Positions 9,998 through 18,795 of a stretch of 43,484 bases of DNA are shown in pieces; the first letter of the stretch is position 1, and every line of letters begins with the position of its first letter. Below the pieces are notes generated by a model. The model did not search any database and had not been told where the DNA came from. It worked only from the letters and a program-made list of their open reading frames with translations. Location: contig CANQPI010000015.1 of assembly GCA_947625725.1 (NCBI GenBank), forward strand, positions 1-43,484. The letters are read 5' to 3'. The position numbers and the translations under genes were made by a program. Origin of the DNA: an uncultured Clostridia bacterium (GTDB lineage Bacteria > Bacillota > Clostridia > Christensenellales > CAG-314).

Positions 9998-10049
9998 TAA
10001 GGGCATTTCACTGCAAAAATCAGCCCGCAGTGCGTTTTTCTACAAAAAA

Positions 10050-10090: not shown

Positions 10091-13000
10091 TTATTTTTTT
10101 GTCATGGGGTCGTCGAAAGGATTTTCGCCAACCGTCAGATAAAAACTTCCGTCTTGGAAAGTGATGGTAAATTCCATACTGTTTGCAGAGAAAGAAACAG
10201 AGTCTTTTTCCGCGTCGTAAGTCCAAGTTATACTTTCATCAAAGTCGTCATAGAAGTCAAAATCTGCTTCATAAGACGCATTACCCGTGCCGCCCTTGTT
10301 GATTACGATAGTGTAATCGCCGTCGCCGTCGTTGTAACTAAATGTGCCGTAGAATTTGCTTTCGGGCGAGTCGTCGTCGGGATTCGGATCGGGATCAGGC
10401 GTGGGAGTAGGCGTAGGCGTGGAAGTCTTGGTAAAGTCCACTCCCATGTAAGTTATTGTTCCGTTTTGCAACGAAATATTATCGGGATTGCTACCTGCGA
10501 TACTTATCGAACCGTCTGCGACATTGTAACTCCAAGTGAAGTCGAATGAGTAATCGTCACCGAAATAGGTATCCTCATAGTAATACGAGCCTGTATGCGC
10601 CGCGTTCAACGTCAAGGTGTAATCGCCCTCGTCGTCAGAGCCTTCCCAAATGCCAACGTAGTCGCTTTCGGGAGTGACCTGTTTTTGTTCCTCCGCCGTT
10701 TTTGTCATAGCGCCTATTTTGGAACTTCCGCGCGTCAAATAACATTTGTCGCCCTCAAACTGCATGTAGAACGTGGAGCCGTCAGCCGAAAACGTAATTT
10801 TATGTTCCGTTTCATCGTATGTCCAACTTATTGCTTGATCAAAATCGTCGTAGTCCCATATCTCTCCAACGTAGGAAGCGTTTCCCGAACCGTCGGCATG
10901 AATAATTATTTCGTAGTCGCCGTCGCCGTCATTTACCGTCCAAGTGCCGTAGTACATATCTTCGGTGATTTGCGGTGTGGGAGCGGAGTTGTCCACGATC
11001 TCTACCTCAAAGCCGTCCTCGCCAAAGCTGAACGTGTAGTCGATCTCGCCGACGCTTGCCGTCCAAGCGGCGTATTCCTCGTTCAATTTGGGGCAATGGA
11101 AGGCGTATTCGACGGTATCGTCGCCTATCATCACTTGTCCGTCGGCAAATGTGTAGGTAACTTCTTGGTAGGTGTGACTACCCAAAATCGCGTCTTGCGT
11201 AACCAATACGTAGATTTTCTTCGTGGCGCGGTCGGTCAACTTCATCACTTTGCCGTCGTTGCTCAACTCTCCGATAAAGTTTACGGAAAACGCATTGAAA
11301 CTCAAATCGACTCCGTCGATAACGTAAGCGTAGGTTTGAGGTTTAGTGGGGTTATCGGGCGAAATATCCCAATAACACACAGCCACGCTGCCCAAACCGT
11401 CAAAGTCAAATCTGAAACACCAATCTTCGTCAAAGTAACCGTAAAATTGTCCCTTGGCGGCGTCGTACTGAATTTGCGGTCTGGTGTAGGGGTTTTCGCC
11501 CGGCATATACGCACCCGTGCAAACGCTTGCCACGTTGTCGGAGGCGATAGTCATTTCGCCGTATTCGCTCACCGTTATCGTCAACGTTTCCGTACCTACC
11601 GTTGCCGAGTATGTGCCGTTTTCGCCTGTGTAAGTGCCGTTTTCGCCGCCGATAGAGATATTGCCGTCGGCGTCAAACGTCGCGGTGGTGTTCAGCGCGG
11701 ACCAAGTGCCCACAACCGTACCCACTTTGACAAGCAGTGCGTTTTGCACGTCGCTCCTGCTGATTTGAATTTCCAAAGCCAACGTGCCGTTGTCGTTGAG
11801 CGTGCCGTAAACTTGGTGGTTTTCCACAACCAAATTGATTTGACTTTCGATATTAACAGTGTACTTTTTGCTTTCGCCCTTTACCGCTTTTCTACCGGGA
11901 AGCCAAGTAGTAACTGTGTAGTTGCCCTCGGCGTCAATATCGAATCTGTAATAACTTCCGTCAAAGAACAAACCGTACCAATTTCCCGCAAACGCGCTGC
12001 CGTCAACGGGTTCGGGAGTTATGTCCTCGAAAGTGAAGTTTTCGGTATCGACTTTGTACACGTTAGTCAGTTTGCCGTTGTAGTCGTAAACATAGACGGT
12101 TTTCTCCGCACTGCTGTATTCGGCAATACCGACTTGCACGCCGTTAAACATCATGTAATTTCCGTCGGAGTCCGTTTCGAGGTAGAAGTAATCGCCTGTT
12201 TCGGGGTTGGTAAACTTGGCGTTGTACACGTACAAAGCCGAAAAGTACATGTTTTGATAGTACTTTGCCGCGGGATCGTACTCCTTGCCGGGCAACCACT
12301 GAACGCTCATACCGGCGTCGCTGTACCAACCGAGGAAAGCGTCCGAACTTACCTCGGGAGCAGGTCCCGGCTCATAACCGTTTTCCGCACCGGGATACAA
12401 AAATACGGGATCGCTGTTGGCGTTTGCAGAGAACTGCAACGTAAAATTTTCTACCTTTGTCAAAATGTCCGGTTCGTCGGAATAGTCCGGTTCGTCCTCA
12501 GGTTGATGTGCGTAGACGACCAACTGTCCCTCGTCGTTAAAGAACATCTCCGCAACAAAGGACAATCTCCACACTTCGTATTGGAAACCGTCGTCGCCCG
12601 TAACAAGTTCATCCGGCTTGGTTTCGGCGTCAGCCTTGCCGAAAACCTCGTACGCATGCGCAACAAAACGCAAACCGCCCTCCGCTCTCCTTTGCAAATC
12701 GGTAACTTCCAAACCTTGGTAGTAAATGGTGTTGGCTTCTATGTGGTAGCACTCCTCGATACCCAAAATTCCGCTGGACCATTCGTCGCCCGTGACCCAA
12801 TCGCCGCGATACTCTTGGGGGATCAAGTCGGTGGGAGTGGTATCGCGCCATTGCGCGACAAACGTCACCTCCTCGGTAACGGGGTATTGAGCGTTAGCGT
12901 CGTACAGTTGCGTATCGCCATCGATCTGCCAACCCGTAAACTCCCAATTGCCGTCGCGTTCGGGTGCGTCGGGCAGTGTGATCGTTTGGTTCTCGTCCGC

Positions 13001-13384
13001 AAATATCGATTGGATACTTTCCGCTCCCTCGTAACCCGCGCTGAATTTTACTTCGATCTTCGGTGCGGGAGTGGTGTCGCGCCACTTTGCTACCAAAGTA
13101 ACGTTCTTGCTCACCGTGTATTCCGTTCCTTGCTCGTACTTGACGTCGCCGTCGTACCAGCCCAAAAACTCCCAATTGCCGTCGCGTTCGGGCGCATTGG
13201 GCAGTGTGACGGTTTCGCCCTGCGTCTTAGTGACGGATTGCGGCGCGACCCCTCCGTCAAAGCCCGCGTCGAAATTTACCGTGTACTTCGTTGTCGGTTC
13301 GTTCGGTTGGCATGCGACAAACACACAAGCGGTCGCAACCAAAACAAACACGGCGACAAGAGCAACTAATGCTTTTTTCTTCAT
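10091..13384 (-). CDS. Large surface lipoprotein with InlB-type repeats
   Basis: Secreted, probably lipid-anchored protein of 1097 residues; function not recognised. The signal peptide MKKKALVALVAVFVLVA has candidate lipobox cysteines at C20 and C25. Two Listeria-Bacteroides (InlB B) repeats of about 75 residues follow, each with PERDGNWEF, a GW turn and the ending AKWRDTT or AQWRDTT. After a long middle region of degenerate beta-rich units, the C-terminus has three related modules (YYGTWTVNDGDGDYEI, YVGIWEGSDDEGDYTL, FYGTFSYNDGDGDYTI), the last two joined by a TPTPTPTPDPDPNP linker. The start at 13384 has GGAGAGAGGG upstream. Composition is acidic, rich in D, Y and T. Its promoter contains a G10 tract, suggesting phase-variable expression. 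Confidence 0.85.
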   Translation of the reverse strand: MKKKALVALVAVFVLVATACVFVACQPNEPTTKYTVNFDAGFDGGVAPQSVTKTQGETVTLPNAPERDGNWEFLGWYDGDVKYEQGTEYTVSKNVTLVAKWRDTTPAPKIEVKFSAGYEGAESIQSIFADENQTITLPDAPERDGNWEFTGWQIDGDTQLYDANAQYPVTEEVTFVAQWRDTTPTDLIPQEYRGDWVTGDEWSSGILGIEECYHIEANTIYYQGLEVTDLQRRAEGGLRFVAHAYEVFGKADAETKPDELVTGDDGFQYEVWRLSFVAEMFFNDEGQLVVYAHQPEDEPDYSDEPDILTKVENFTLQFSANANSDPVFLYPGAENGYEPGPAPEVSSDAFLGWYSDAGMSVQWLPGKEYDPAAKYYQNMYFSALYVYNAKFTNPETGDYFYLETDSDGNYMMFNGVQVGIAEYSSAEKTVYVYDYNGKLTNVYKVDTENFTFEDITPEPVDGSAFAGNWYGLFFDGSYYRFDIDAEGNYTVTTWLPGRKAVKGESKKYTVNIESQINLVVENHQVYGTLNDNGTLALEIQISRSDVQNALLVKVGTVVGTWSALNTTATFDADGNISIGGENGTYTGENGTYSATVGTETLTITVSEYGEMTIASDNVASVCTGAYMPGENPYTRPQIQYDAAKGQFYGYFDEDWCFRFDFDGLGSVAVCYWDISPDNPTKPQTYAYVIDGVDLSFNAFSVNFIGELSNDGKVMKLTDRATKKIYVLVTQDAILGSHTYQEVTYTFADGQVMIGDDTVEYAFHCPKLNEEYAAWTASVGEIDYTFSFGEDGFEVEIVDNSAPTPQITEDMYYGTWTVNDGDGDYEIIIHADGSGNASYVGEIWDYDDFDQAISWTYDETEHKITFSADGSTFYMQFEGDKCYLTRGSSKIGAMTKTAEEQKQVTPESDYVGIWEGSDDEGDYTLTLNAAHTGSYYYEDTYFGDDYSFDFTWSYNVADGSISIAGSNPDNISLQNGTITYMGVDFTKTSTPTPTPTPDPDPNPDDDSPESKFYGTFSYNDGDGDYTIVINKGGTGNASYEADFDFYDDFDESITWTYDAEKDSVSFSANSMEFTITFQDGSFYLTVGENPFDDPMTKK

Positions 13385-13485
13385 ACTGTAACCCTCTCTC
13401 CTATTAAGATTTTTGTTGCCTCGCCAAGTTACAAGTGCGGCGAGGGTATATATTATGACACCTTTATAAACAGTATCATTATTAT

Positions 13486-13515
13486 ATGATACCCCCCCCC
13501 CTATCGGTTTGTCAA
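13486..13515 (-). promoter_or_regulatory. Lipoprotein promoter with G10 tract in the spacer
   Basis: On the minus strand TTGACA (13510-13515), 18-nt spacer, TATCAT (13486-13491). Ten of the 18 spacer bases are a G homopolymer that abuts the -10 box. A second -10-like TATAAT (13481-13486) lies 23 nt from the -35. Slippage would change the spacing and hence promoter strength. Confidence 0.65.
13492..13501. repeat. Homopolymer of ten C (G10 on the minus strand)
   Basis: A run of ten C on the plus strand between -10 and -35 of the lipoprotein promoter; I noticed no comparable G or C run elsewhere in the window. Confidence 0.9.
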
Positions 13516-13790: not shown

Positions 13791-13821
13791 AAAAATCCCC
13801 GTCAATTGCGAGTTTGACGGG
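13791..13821 (-). terminator. Terminator of the GLUG-ABC operon
   Basis: Stem CCCGTCAA (13798-13805) and TTGACGGG (13814-13821). On the minus strand it is followed by GATTTTT. It lies about 90 nt beyond the stop of the second ABC gene. Confidence 0.65.
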
Positions 13822-13913
13822 AACGGTTTTGCGCCGACCGCGCGAGCCGTTTTTCGCTTTCAACGGGGATCGGATAACGATTTATTTGCTCTGCCGTCGG
13901 CAAATATACGAAA

Positions 13914-16346
13914 CTACAACTGTTTGATAGCGTCGATCGGATTTAATTTGGCGATTTTCCTCAGAGGCAACCACGCCGCCAACAAAATGAACCCAAATGA
14001 TATTACGAACGCAACCGCTATCGTTATATACTCTACGCAGAAAAACGGTACGACTCGTATAAAAATCTTGCTGAACGCCACGTTGAGTACTGCCGCGAGG
14101 GCATATATCACGCATAGAACGATTACAAAATTAAATGCGGATACCGTCAACGCCTCCAAGATAAAGATGTTGTAAATATCCCGTTTAGAAGCGCCCAACC
14201 CCATCAACATTCCTATTTCTCTGATTCTGTCCGTTACGCTGAACGTTATGAGGTTGACGACCATCAGCAGCATGAAAAACAACAAAACGCCGCCCAAAAC
14301 TCCAACGATTATCAAGATAGATTTTATTTCTTTGGCAAATAAAAATGTTACTACCGTAACGTCCTCGTAGCCGTATTCCTCGCCTCGATCGTTTCCCGCA
14401 GAATTTATCACCGCGTTGTAGCGCTTTTCCAATTTGTGCGCAAAAGTTTGCAAATTGCGTATCGAGTCGGCGCGTATGCACACTGTTTGAAAGTGTATAT
14501 CCTTCCACAGATTTCTCATTGTTTTTTCGTTGAATATGGCGTAAAAATGAGAAATATTTCCGGTCATAGAAGTATTAGTGGGGTAGTTTTGAAAGTAAAC
14601 TCCTGCCAATCTGTATTCGCCAAGATTGGCTATCGTTTTACCCGTTTTGTCGTCAAATAATTTCAATTCGAAACTTTGCCCCAACTGTTGGGGAATATCG
14701 CGTACATTTTGATACTTTTCGTCTATGTAGCCGTATTTTGTTTTTCTGTTTGTAAACAGTTGCGCATACAGTTCGTAACTCAACACTATTTCATCGTCGT
14801 CGAGCAAAATTTCACCATTTGTTTTTGCCGCCTTTCCTACCGTGCAATCTGCGGTAATTATTTTTCCGTTTTCGTAACTTTGTGAAGAAACAAGTCCTAT
14901 ATCCGTATAGATATAGGTGTTGCCTTTGCCGTAGATAAATCTTGTGTAACTGTCGTATTTGTTTACCACGTAAGATTTCCACTCGTCTTTATGCCTGCTT
15001 TCAAAGTCCTCCCGAGCAAAAACCTGCGGCAGAATATATGCGTCCGTTCCGTATTGTTCCGTTCGGATCACGCCGGCGAGAGTGGGGTAATTGTCGTTTT
15101 GAGGCGTAAAAAGGTCGGAACAATCTATCCTTTTGCCTACCAATTGCTCGACGGAAAATTCTTCCTCGTCGTAGGAAACCATTTCTCCGTTTACTTCCAC
15201 AAACAAGCATTTCTTGTTGAGATTCAATTGATACTCCGTTATGTAACAAGAATTACTGTCCAACTCCGATGCGTCGCCCGCAAAGTTCAGACCGAAATCC
15301 AACACGTCTTGTTTGTTTTCAACTATACCGTCTACCAGACTGTTGCAATTTTGGCCGATGTAATCCAACGCCTCCGACTTCATCAAATCCGGATTCACGT
15401 AACCGCTTTCACTCCTATTTCCTAATTGGCAAACAGAAAAATACGGAATGTCGTGTTGTTTGATAAATTGTACTACGGAACGTTGCGGCGAAATGCACAA
15501 GCACATTTCGGTAATAAGCAACGCCGCCAAACTGAACACGGACAGCAACACGGTAAACACACTGCGAACTTTGTGTTGCTTCATATTGTTCAAACCCAAT
15601 TTGAGGCATACCGCAAACGGCAACCTCTTTTTGGTGGCAACAAACGGACTCGCAGGTCGTTCGTCCTTCGGCTGCTCCCCCGAGTCGGATACTATCTCCC
15701 CGTCGGATATTTCCAATATGCGATCCGCATACTTCTCCGCGCTCTCTCTGTCGTGAGATACTACTACTACCAACTTGCTTCGGGATAGCGTTTTGAGTAT
15801 ATTCCAAATACTTTCTCCCGTCGCGCTATCCAAGTTGCCCGTCGGTTCGTCCGCAAGAATCATCTTGCTCTCTTTTACTATACATCTGGCTATGGCTACT
15901 CTCTGCTTCTCTCCTCCGGACAACTCGTTTACATTGCGTTTCAGATATTCGTCATTCAATTCAACTTGTCGCATTGCGTCACTGACAGTTTGGTCTACGT
16001 CCTTTTCTTTGCTCAATTGCAACGCAAGTTCTATGTTTTGCTTTACGTTCAAATCTCCCAACAGGTTGTATTCCTGAAATATAAACCCCACATAACTGTT
16101 TCGGTAACTGTCATAGTCCTTCTGCTTGAAGTTTTTCATCCTCACGCCGTCTACTATGATCTCCCCCGCTGTGGGACTGTCCAAGCCTCCCAACAAGTTG
16201 AGCAAGGTGGATTTGCCGCTGCCGCTCTTGCCCAATATGAATACCATGCCTGTGCTTGCCAATTCAAAGCGGACGCCCCTGAGGGCATCCACTTTCTGCT
16301 TGGTCTTGGATACGTATCTCTTGCTTACGTTGTCCAGTACTACCAT
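13914..16346 (-). CDS. ABC transporter ATPase-permease fusion (MacB/LolD-FtsX type), copy 2
   Basis: One 810-residue chain joins an ABC ATPase to a four-helix FtsX-like permease. The ATPase has Walker A GKSGSGKST (39-47), signature LSGGEKQRV (142-150) and Walker B MILADEP (162-168). TM1 is at about 261-285, then a large extracytoplasmic domain of about 380 residues, then three C-terminal helices with the family ending LPLRKIAKLNPIDAIKQL. Such proteins act as mechanotransmitters or exporters of lipoproteins or peptides; the substrate here is unknown. Residues 1-286 look identical to copy 1 at DNA level, while the ectodomain differs. The ATG at 16346 has GGAGAGG upstream. It is the last gene of the operon, 46 nt after copy 1. 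Confidence 0.9.
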   Translation of the reverse strand: MVVLDNVSKRYVSKTKQKVDALRGVRFELASTGMVFILGKSGSGKSTLLNLLGGLDSPTAGEIIVDGVRMKNFKQKDYDSYRNSYVGFIFQEYNLLGDLNVKQNIELALQLSKEKDVDQTVSDAMRQVELNDEYLKRNVNELSGGEKQRVAIARCIVKESKMILADEPTGNLDSATGESIWNILKTLSRSKLVVVVSHDRESAEKYADRILEISDGEIVSDSGEQPKDERPASPFVATKKRLPFAVCLKLGLNNMKQHKVRSVFTVLLSVFSLAALLITEMCLCISPQRSVVQFIKQHDIPYFSVCQLGNRSESGYVNPDLMKSEALDYIGQNCNSLVDGIVENKQDVLDFGLNFAGDASELDSNSCYITEYQLNLNKKCLFVEVNGEMVSYDEEEFSVEQLVGKRIDCSDLFTPQNDNYPTLAGVIRTEQYGTDAYILPQVFAREDFESRHKDEWKSYVVNKYDSYTRFIYGKGNTYIYTDIGLVSSQSYENGKIITADCTVGKAAKTNGEILLDDDEIVLSYELYAQLFTNRKTKYGYIDEKYQNVRDIPQQLGQSFELKLFDDKTGKTIANLGEYRLAGVYFQNYPTNTSMTGNISHFYAIFNEKTMRNLWKDIHFQTVCIRADSIRNLQTFAHKLEKRYNAVINSAGNDRGEEYGYEDVTVVTFLFAKEIKSILIIVGVLGGVLLFFMLLMVVNLITFSVTDRIREIGMLMGLGASKRDIYNIFILEALTVSAFNFVIVLCVIYALAAVLNVAFSKIFIRVVPFFCVEYITIAVAFVISFGFILLAAWLPLRKIAKLNPIDAIKQL

Positions 16347-16360
16347 ATCCTCTCCTTTTT
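15487..16360. repeat. Copy of an apparently identical 874-bp block
   Basis: Matches 17936-18809 at a constant offset of 2449 bp, with no difference seen by eye. It covers the ribosome binding site and codons 1-286 of the ABC gene. Identity stops sharply at CISP in the protein on one side and at the end of the T run before the ribosome binding site on the other. Confidence 0.85.
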
Positions 16361-16392
16361 CTAAGTTGTCAAATAACACGAACTAAAATTTG

Positions 16393-18795
16393 TTACAATT
16401 TTCTTATCGCATCGATAGGTTTTAGTTTGGCGATTTTCCTCAGCGGCAACCATGCCGCCACCAGCACCAATACAAATGACACTGCAAACGCCACAATGAC
16501 GGTTATGTATTCTACGCATAGAAATGGCACATAGCGCATATAGTCTTTGCAGTAATATTTGTTTGTTATTGCCGCAAAACCGAACGCCATGCTCATTGCG
16601 ATCACAAAACTCAATACGGATATTACCAATGTTTGCAAGATAAAGATAGCGTAAATATCTTTTTTGGACGTTCCAAGTCCCATCAGCACGCCTATTTCGC
16701 CGGTTCTGTCAGTCACGCTGAACGATATTAGATTGACTATCATCAACAGGGTTATCACAAGCAAAACTGCACCGATTAACCCAAACAGCAAAGCAAACTC
16801 CGTTATTCTGCTAACGAATTCGTCTACTTTCCATTTTATATCATATTGATTTCCGACAATAGTTTCTTCGTAAGCCCCCGCAAAAAATATATATGCGTCG
16901 TACTTGTTTACCAACTTAATCAAAAAACTTTCGGGATTACGAATCGAATCCATACTGATCAAGACGCTTTGCTCGCCGATTGTCCCCCAAAGACTTCTTT
17001 CCCTTTTTTTGTTTAATACCATTTTGAAAAGAGAATCGTAGCTTGCTTCAGGATTGTATCTTTCAAAAGATACACCCGCCAACGTGAATTTTCCTGCATT
17101 CAGAATCACCTCGCCCTTTCTCTCATCGTAAAATTTAAGTTCGAAACTTTGCCCCAATTGTTGGGGAATATAAAGAATTTTGTTGTTATTCAGATCTATG
17201 TACTCGTTTTTTGGTTTTACATTGTCAAAAAATTCGGCAAACAGTTCATAACTTATCACTACCTCGTCGTCGTTCAATTCAATTGCCGTTGTCGGCTCTC
17301 CGTTCACAACGTTATCTGCGGTTATCGTTACATCACGACAATAATGACTTATGAAAACAGAGCCTGTGTACCTGTCGTTTTTGTCGCCGAATTTCAAACC
17401 TATCCGATCTAATTCGCTCAATTCGTAATTCAAAATACTCCTGCTTTCAAAGTCCTCCCGAGCAAAAAACCGCGGCAGAATATATGCGTCCGTTCCGTAT
17501 TGCTCCGTTCGGATCACGCCGGCGAGAGTGGGGTAGTTGTCGTTTTGAGGAGTAAAAAGGCCGAAACAATCTATTCTTTTGCCTACCAATTGCTCGACGG
17601 AAAATTCCTCCTCGCTGTACAAAACCATCTCTCCGTTTACTTCTACCCGCATATCTCTCCCTACACTGATGGAATGCAACCAGTACTCGGTGATATAACA
17701 AGAATTGCTGTCCAACTCCAATGCGTCGCCCGCAAAGTTCAGACCGAAATCCAACACGTCTTGTTTGTTTTCCACTATGCCGTTCACCAAGTAATCCGAA
17801 TTTTTTTCTATGTAATCCATTGTATCTGGATTCATTCTTTGCAAAATTGCGTTTCCCATATTGAGCTTGTGATTTTGTCCTACAAGAATGAACGGGACAT
17901 TGTTTTGCTTTACAAATCTGCCGAATATCCGCGCAGGCGAAATGCACAAGCACATTTCGGTAATAAGCAACGCCGCCAAACTGAACACGGACAGCAACAC
18001 GGTAAACACACTGCGAACTTTGTGTTGCTTCATATTGTTCAAACCCAATTTGAGGCATACCGCAAACGGCAACCTCTTTTTGGTGGCAACAAACGGACTC
18101 GCAGGTCGTTCGTCCTTCGGCTGCTCCCCCGAGTCGGATACTATCTCCCCGTCGGATATTTCCAATATGCGATCCGCATACTTCTCCGCGCTCTCTCTGT
18201 CGTGAGATACTACTACTACCAACTTGCTTCGGGATAGCGTTTTGAGTATATTCCAAATACTTTCTCCCGTCGCGCTATCCAAGTTGCCCGTCGGTTCGTC
18301 CGCAAGAATCATCTTGCTCTCTTTTACTATACATCTGGCTATGGCTACTCTCTGCTTCTCTCCTCCGGACAACTCGTTTACATTGCGTTTCAGATATTCG
18401 TCATTCAATTCAACTTGTCGCATTGCGTCACTGACAGTTTGGTCTACGTCCTTTTCTTTGCTCAATTGCAACGCAAGTTCTATGTTTTGCTTTACGTTCA
18501 AATCTCCCAACAGGTTGTATTCCTGAAATATAAACCCCACATAACTGTTTCGGTAACTGTCATAGTCCTTCTGCTTGAAGTTTTTCATCCTCACGCCGTC
18601 TACTATGATCTCCCCCGCTGTGGGACTGTCCAAGCCTCCCAACAAGTTGAGCAAGGTGGATTTGCCGCTGCCGCTCTTGCCCAATATGAATACCATGCCT
18701 GTGCTTGCCAATTCAAAGCGGACGCCCCTGAGGGCATCCACTTTCTGCTTGGTCTTGGATACGTATCTCTTGCTTACGTTGTCCAGTACTACCAT
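16393..18795 (-). CDS. ABC transporter ATPase-permease fusion (MacB/LolD-FtsX type), copy 1
   Basis: Paralogue of the following gene, 800 residues, with the same ATPase (Walker A 39-47, signature 142-150, Walker B 162-168), TM1 at about 261-285, a large ectodomain and three C-terminal helices ending LPLRKIAKLKPIDAIRKL. After residue 287 the two copies diverge, then return to near identity in patches (GIVENKQDVLDFGLNFAGDA; EEFSVEQLVGKRIDC; LFTPQNDNYPTLAGVIRTEQ). That mosaic suggests gene conversion or selection for ectodomain variation. The start at 18795 is preceded by GGAGAGG. It lies 41 nt after the GLUG protein gene with no terminator between them, so they form an operon. The pairing of copies as homo- or heterodimers is not known. 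Confidence 0.9.
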   Translation of the reverse strand: MVVLDNVSKRYVSKTKQKVDALRGVRFELASTGMVFILGKSGSGKSTLLNLLGGLDSPTAGEIIVDGVRMKNFKQKDYDSYRNSYVGFIFQEYNLLGDLNVKQNIELALQLSKEKDVDQTVSDAMRQVELNDEYLKRNVNELSGGEKQRVAIARCIVKESKMILADEPTGNLDSATGESIWNILKTLSRSKLVVVVSHDRESAEKYADRILEISDGEIVSDSGEQPKDERPASPFVATKKRLPFAVCLKLGLNNMKQHKVRSVFTVLLSVFSLAALLITEMCLCISPARIFGRFVKQNNVPFILVGQNHKLNMGNAILQRMNPDTMDYIEKNSDYLVNGIVENKQDVLDFGLNFAGDALELDSNSCYITEYWLHSISVGRDMRVEVNGEMVLYSEEEFSVEQLVGKRIDCFGLFTPQNDNYPTLAGVIRTEQYGTDAYILPRFFAREDFESRSILNYELSELDRIGLKFGDKNDRYTGSVFISHYCRDVTITADNVVNGEPTTAIELNDDEVVISYELFAEFFDNVKPKNEYIDLNNNKILYIPQQLGQSFELKFYDERKGEVILNAGKFTLAGVSFERYNPEASYDSLFKMVLNKKRERSLWGTIGEQSVLISMDSIRNPESFLIKLVNKYDAYIFFAGAYEETIVGNQYDIKWKVDEFVSRITEFALLFGLIGAVLLVITLLMIVNLISFSVTDRTGEIGVLMGLGTSKKDIYAIFILQTLVISVLSFVIAMSMAFGFAAITNKYYCKDYMRYVPFLCVEYITVIVAFAVSFVLVLVAAWLPLRKIAKLKPIDAIRKL

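Follow-up and report, generated by a model that had tools for sequence, protein, structure and literature searches.

A stretch of 43,484 nt from an uncultured Clostridia bacterium (Christensenellales, CAG-314; assembly GCA_947625725.1, contig CANQPI010000015.1; hereafter the window) carries a minus-strand promoter with a run of ten guanines (G10) in its spacer, upstream of a gene for a predicted lipoprotein of 1097 amino acids (aa). Spacer-length phase variation accounts for this promoter best, and we consider it quite probable; cells would probably gain or lose a G, turning surface proteins up or down at random. The evidence consists of the promoter anatomy, its recurrence, a bias in its target genes within the home genome (the one containing the window), an offset in spacing, differences in tract length between some similar promoters, and two contig breaks.

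The promoter has the form TTGACA-N8-G10-TATCAT, with an 18-nt spacer. On the minus strand, the -35 hexamer TTGACA (13510..13515) is followed by the eight spacer nucleotides outside the tract (AACCGATA, 13502..13509), by the G10 tract (13492..13501, seen as C10 on the plus strand), which forms the 3' end of the spacer and adjoins the -10, and by the -10 hexamer TATCAT (13486..13491). The window sequence and a promoter scan both agree with the first-pass annotation of this DNA, which had described TTGACA and TATCAT 18 nt apart with G10 between them. In the scan this was the top of 22 promoter-like sites between positions 10,000 and 20,000 (11 of 12 matches), where shuffled sequences gave 15.7 sites (standard deviation 3.6). 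As in the porA promoter of Neisseria meningitidis, the homopolymer lies between the -35 and the -10, and the spacing is one unit from the optimum, with 18 nt here and a 17-nt peak in ordinary promoters. Loss of one G would give 17 nt, as had been calculated. It had also been proposed that loss of six Gs would bring a second -10 into position; an overlapping TATAAT (13481..13486, minus strand, seen in a longer pattern match) does lie 23 nt from the -35, and would lie at 17 nt after such a loss, but its role found no support and its use is unlikely. A loss of six is improbable because the G4 remnant should no longer slip readily.

The lipoprotein gene (10091..13384, minus strand) was defined by its frame, a signal-peptide call and a domain search. 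The 1097-residue frame that the first-pass annotation called a lipoprotein is indeed there: read from ATG 13384, it has a predicted lipoprotein-type signal peptide and two InlB/Listeria-Bacteroides repeats, and its surface location is a prediction from these features. The lipid-bearing cysteine would be C20 by a crude rule, with C25 (FVAC) equally possible. The open reading frame (ORF) listing starts the frame at GTG 13528, upstream of the promoter, giving 1145 aa; ATG 13384 was preferred because the signal peptide starts there and because it is preceded by GGAGAGAGGG (13392..13401, minus strand), a probable ribosome-binding site. The G10 tract ends 107 nt ahead of this ATG and is not intragenic. 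Past about residue 196, the protein gave a single match of 71 residues among the 24 other genomes of the genus. Orthologues of this gene were not used for tract comparison, since nearly all matches were to the repeat-bearing N-terminus.

The arrangement recurs in the home genome (G000, 1.68 Mb). A search with the pattern TTGA-N-G7+-N-TANNNT returned 17 rows, corresponding to 14 places spread over 12 contigs, and the reversed pattern returned one (none with the narrower pattern used genus-wide). All 14 tracts were at least G9, although the pattern admitted G7. The genome holds 32 places of G9 or longer, 14 of which are in promoter spacers behind TTGAC, one is the start of contig C39 (the tract is repeated at its end), and 17 are elsewhere; those outside recognised promoter spacers include L016, L018, L021 and L295.

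In a genus sample of 25 genomes, the home genome included and each species represented by one genome, a similar pattern was found in 19 genomes (163 rows, overlapping matches included) and in none of the other six, with numbers in the other genomes ranging from none to about as many as the 14 at home. The arrangement was found in 3 of 12 genomes from other genera of the family and in 2 of 24 from other families of the order, and the reversed control gave nothing in all 61 genomes searched. With a stricter pattern, 391 genomes of the class yielded the home genome (nine rows) and four of the 390 others, with at most two rows each. Among the matches listed (80 of at least 119 stretches), the named occurrences scatter over many phyla, and many are animal-gut by label. 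One of these labels is apparently wrong, since genus genome G001 matches record JAMPAB (831-860), labelled Corallococcus sp. Carriage by phages was considered and rejected, as the pattern gave no stretches in viral_contigs.

The home promoters show a strong target bias. Two of the 14 (C33 and C39) are at contig edges with no gene in reach, and 11 of the remaining 12 precede a lipobox protein, as judged by a crude lipobox/signal-peptide rule that mis-calls some zinc-ribbon membrane proteins. The exception, C7, is followed by a 60-aa frame and then by another gene, presumably that of ribosomal protein S2. The control set comprised the first 30 loci of 131 ordinary home TTGACA promoter rows, minus L285, which is itself a G-tract promoter; 4 of these 29 precede lipobox proteins and three have no gene (11/12 vs 4/29, Fisher P = 4.6e-6). 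The reversed control for ordinary promoters gave 12 rows, indicating that some of them are chance matches. The C10, C30 and C38 targets, which are among the 11, are not fully independent because one module is common to all three. The home target proteins contain BspA-type leucine-rich repeats (LRR_5), Big_2, MBG, InlB repeats and DUF6273; in one family search, one of eight matched no family.

C10, C30 and C38 have in common a promoter and signal-peptide module (in C33, only the promoter is present), while the protein bodies are partly different, suggesting module shuffling. Two G9 tracts were also located within predicted lipoprotein frames, at codon 35 of L003 (G000:C2:5713) and codon 121 of L001 (G000:C1:128792), and are candidates for frameshift-type switching; the region of L003 has a match in the N-terminal part of the window lipoprotein.

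Spacer geometry was examined in 125 genus tracts, among the matches listed, leaving aside 19 with a printed -10 less than 15 nt away. In the remaining 106, spacings were 15 nt in 6, 16 in 14, 17 in 11, 18 in 48, 19 in 22, 20 in 3, 24 in one and 25 in one. The 14 home spacings were 14, 15, 17 and 20 nt once each, and 18 and 19 nt five times each. In contrast, 89 ordinary home promoters, taken with a pattern restricted to 16-19 nt, had spacings of 16 (13), 17 (59), 18 (8) and 19 nt (9). Within 16-19 nt, a 17-nt spacing was found in 11 of the 95 listed genus G-tract promoters and in 59 of the 89 ordinary home promoters (P = 5.5e-15). Since G-tract spacers peak at 18-19 nt and ordinary ones at 17, dropping a G or two would in most cases bring the spacing back to the optimum. 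As assembled, the typical tract exceeds the ideal length by one or two Gs, provided that G-runs do not themselves shift the optimum.

The first-pass annotation had suggested comparing tract lengths across related genomes, and here some similar promoters do differ, although most lengths are G9 or G10. Among 12 pairs of similar promoters, drawn from the genus and from beyond it, four differ, by a G or two. Genome G001 has two promoters that are alike for about 40 nt starting at TTGACA and unrelated further upstream, yet one has G10 and the other G9. Three promoters of G019, in which the preceding 45 nt are nearly the same, carry G18, G10 and G10, the two G10 copies being nearly identical where compared. 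The G18 tract (G019:C4:8164-8200) has a 25-nt spacing.

Loss of mismatch repair was ruled out as a general cause, as MutS-family matches were found in 36 of 37 genomes (34 above the cut-off). G019 alone had none, and it was also the only one of four genomes searched without a MutL match; both results are explicable by one missing contig, because the two genes are close together in G000:C16.

Two contig breaks in the home assembly coincide with tracts. Contig C39 opens on G11 followed by 66 nt, and it closes on the same 66 nt, there preceded by T and G10; a 39-nt piece of this flank is absent elsewhere in the assembly. Contig C33 ends exactly at a 77-mer made of G10 plus 67 nt, which is not in the compared stretches of the sister copies C10, C30 and C38, and differences at -26/-25 and +46/+47 keep all the C33 77-mers here distinct from those copies. 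Seven other contig-end pairs have exactly 77 nt in common, suggesting an assembly k of 77, and three further pairs overlap by 70, 67 and 26 nt. By this reasoning, a mixture of G10 and longer tracts would make an assembly-graph junction at G10+67, to which the fit of C39 is close but not exact, because each end stops one base short. Among the 72 ends compared (of 78), a G or C run of at least 7 within 130 nt was found at only three, namely both ends of C39 and that of C33; three further contig starts had no such run in their first 100 nt. The chance of two such breaks, allowing 2 nt of slack, is about 2e-5 (P), for a test framed after the breaks were seen.

We propose that the G10 run is prone to slippage and that its length determines how far apart the -35 and the -10 of a sigma-A-type promoter lie. 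Replication slippage would add or remove Gs, reversibly: G9 would give 17 nt and strong transcription, G10 (the assembled state) 18 nt and weaker transcription, and G11 or more at least 19 nt and a weak or silent promoter, so that the lipoprotein level would differ from cell to cell. The window locus would be one member of a set of 14 home places, located nearly always before large surface lipoproteins, and many such promoters per genome could generate many possible surface states.

Several observations weigh against this proposal. The window locus has a single length (G10) as assembled, and G10 is also the assembled length in every one of four home copies of a promoter module. Tract lengths are narrow, with 112 of the 125 listed genus tracts being G9 or G10 (G8 8, G9 75, G10 37, G11 4, G18 1), and 8 of the 12 similar pairs are equal. 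At home, two spacers (14 and 15 nt) fall below the optimum instead of above it, and no compensation between the N-part and the tract length was found among the genus tracts (rho -0.14, P = 0.17). The target bias is weaker in six other genomes, where 58 of 62 rows comprised 27 lipobox proteins, 12 signal or membrane proteins, 17 that are neither, and two without a gene. The home genome has both MutS and MutL, which should damp slippage. For the contig breaks, C39 misses the predicted junction by one base and could also be accounted for by a tandem copy, library slippage could also produce breaks, and the tract-bearing contig ends in G001, G005, G008 and G014 sit 24-40 nt past the tract. The expectation of a likely phase-variable switch in the first-pass annotation has been strengthened by the recurrence, the spacing offset, the length differences and the two breaks elsewhere, and not by the window tract itself, with its one assembled length.

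A pure spacing model also does not predict the strand and position of the tract, which direct attention to another explanation, that of a fixed sense-strand promoter element. The Gs would play the part of an extended -10 or change the geometry of the helix, 18 nt would be the true optimum, and the lipoproteins would form a constitutive or co-regulated regulon. Sense-strand G was found in 163 rows of the 25 genus genomes and C in 5 (reversed control for C, 1), and the tract adjoins the -10 in 90 of the 106 listed promoters; this bias hints at a role for the sequence of the G-run as well, and the narrow lengths and the spacing mode of 18 nt are in agreement. In a near-match search allowing three mismatches at a fixed spacing of 18, the mismatches per position were nearly as low in the tract (2.1) as in the -35 (1.5), and below those in the -10 (8.5), and 9 of the 58 near-matches had interrupted G-rich spacers. 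However, the other 49 keep a pure run of at least G8, some similar promoters differ in tract length, which reaches G18, the listed spacings range from 15 to 25 nt, and contigs break at tracts, making a fixed element rather unlikely as the whole explanation. It is also improbable that tract lengths and contig breaks arose as artefacts of sequencing, PCR or assembly. All the data are assemblies, and homopolymer errors in library preparation are common, but the tracts occupy one promoter position in 19 of the 25 genus genomes, and similar promoters of different species retain them; an artefact could explain the breaks, not the tracts.

The listed 1145-aa frame, open from GTG 13528 through the tract, would allow a translational switch in which slippage shifts the frame. 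This is very improbable, as the signal peptide starts at ATG 13384, behind the likely ribosome site, and at home C4, C10 and C39 no frame of at least 80 codons covers the tract. A tract that is neutral, without effect at the window gene, is hardly credible: although 17 of the 32 home G9+ places lie outside such spacers, 14 lie inside them, where the control gives 0-1, and nearly all of these that have a gene in reach stand before a lipobox protein. In a more speculative form, spacer-length phase variation could be combined with sequence recognition. The sense-strand G-run next to the -10 would be recognised as a promoter element and at the same time slip as a rheostat, defining a distinct promoter class in the genus. 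Its resting length would usually exceed the ideal by one base, and it would tie about a dozen different surface lipoproteins per genome together in a stochastic surface code; this is possible, but we regard it as doubtful.

The statement in the first-pass annotation that poly-G in a promoter spacer is an established mechanism, with porA as its example, agrees with the relevant passages of PMC7864442, in which poly-G changes in N. meningitidis that shorten the spacing from the optimal 17 nt abolish transcription. The window promoter resembles porA in having poly-G between the -35 and the -10, before the gene of a predicted surface protein. It differs in that the arrangement occupies 14 places in one uncultured gut-lineage genome, mostly before lipoproteins, is known here from DNA sequence only, and has assembled spacings that are mostly too long. 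The vlp genes of Mycoplasma hyorhinis are one gene family in one cluster, whereas the promoters described here are on 12 contigs and their targets have differing domains. In the part of PMC10502178 concerned, several vlp surface lipoproteins each have their own homopolymeric-A promoter and transcript. The likeness is that several lipoprotein genes each have their own tract promoter (11 of the 12 with a gene in reach at home), and the differences are G instead of A, and differing domains on many contigs instead of one gene family.

The same passages of PMC7864442 treat opc alongside porA, tp0126 and tprL. In Treponema pallidum, the poly-G of tp0126 sits between the -35 and the -10, and that of tprL has lengths of 7-11 within isolates, with a green fluorescent protein (GFP) reporter brighter at G8 than at G10 (PMC7864442); these are also promoter poly-G tracts, but in a spirochaete and not in a Clostridia lineage. 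G-tract slippage is described for a pilus of Bifidobacterium breve in the part of PMC9187656 concerned, likewise a surface structure of a gut commensal, with the difference that its tract is intragenic. The passages concerned of a review (PMC11868660) mention invertible promoters in Clostridioides and no poly-G promoters in Clostridia. No description of a poly-G promoter device in gut Clostridia was found in titles and opening abstracts of open-licence PubMed Central, preprints being outside this scope; the mechanism is already known from porA and vlp, and its lineage and scale here were not found in print. The poly-G promoter switches in the cited papers, in the passages concerned, are single loci of pathogens. 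If the proposal is true, the device serves a genus of uncultured gut bacteria as the routine means of controlling surface lipoproteins, and much surface diversity would escape surveys that record a single consensus genome. The sense-strand bias raises the question of whether RNA polymerase reads the G-run itself.

Other features were found around the window promoter. An inverted repeat (GTATCAT-ATAATA-ATGATAC, 13473..13492), spotted by eye in the window only, covers the -10 and is possibly an operator or a chance occurrence. A terminator-like hairpin (13795..13824, minus strand) lies between the upstream ABC-transporter gene and the lipoprotein promoter, in a region where terminator-like sites are no more numerous than in shuffled sequences. 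Beyond it, two tandem ABC transporters with FtsX domains (13914-16379 and 16393-18795, minus strand) are 69% identical overall, with the first ~285 aligned residues identical and the remainder diverged, suggesting a recent conversion or duplication.
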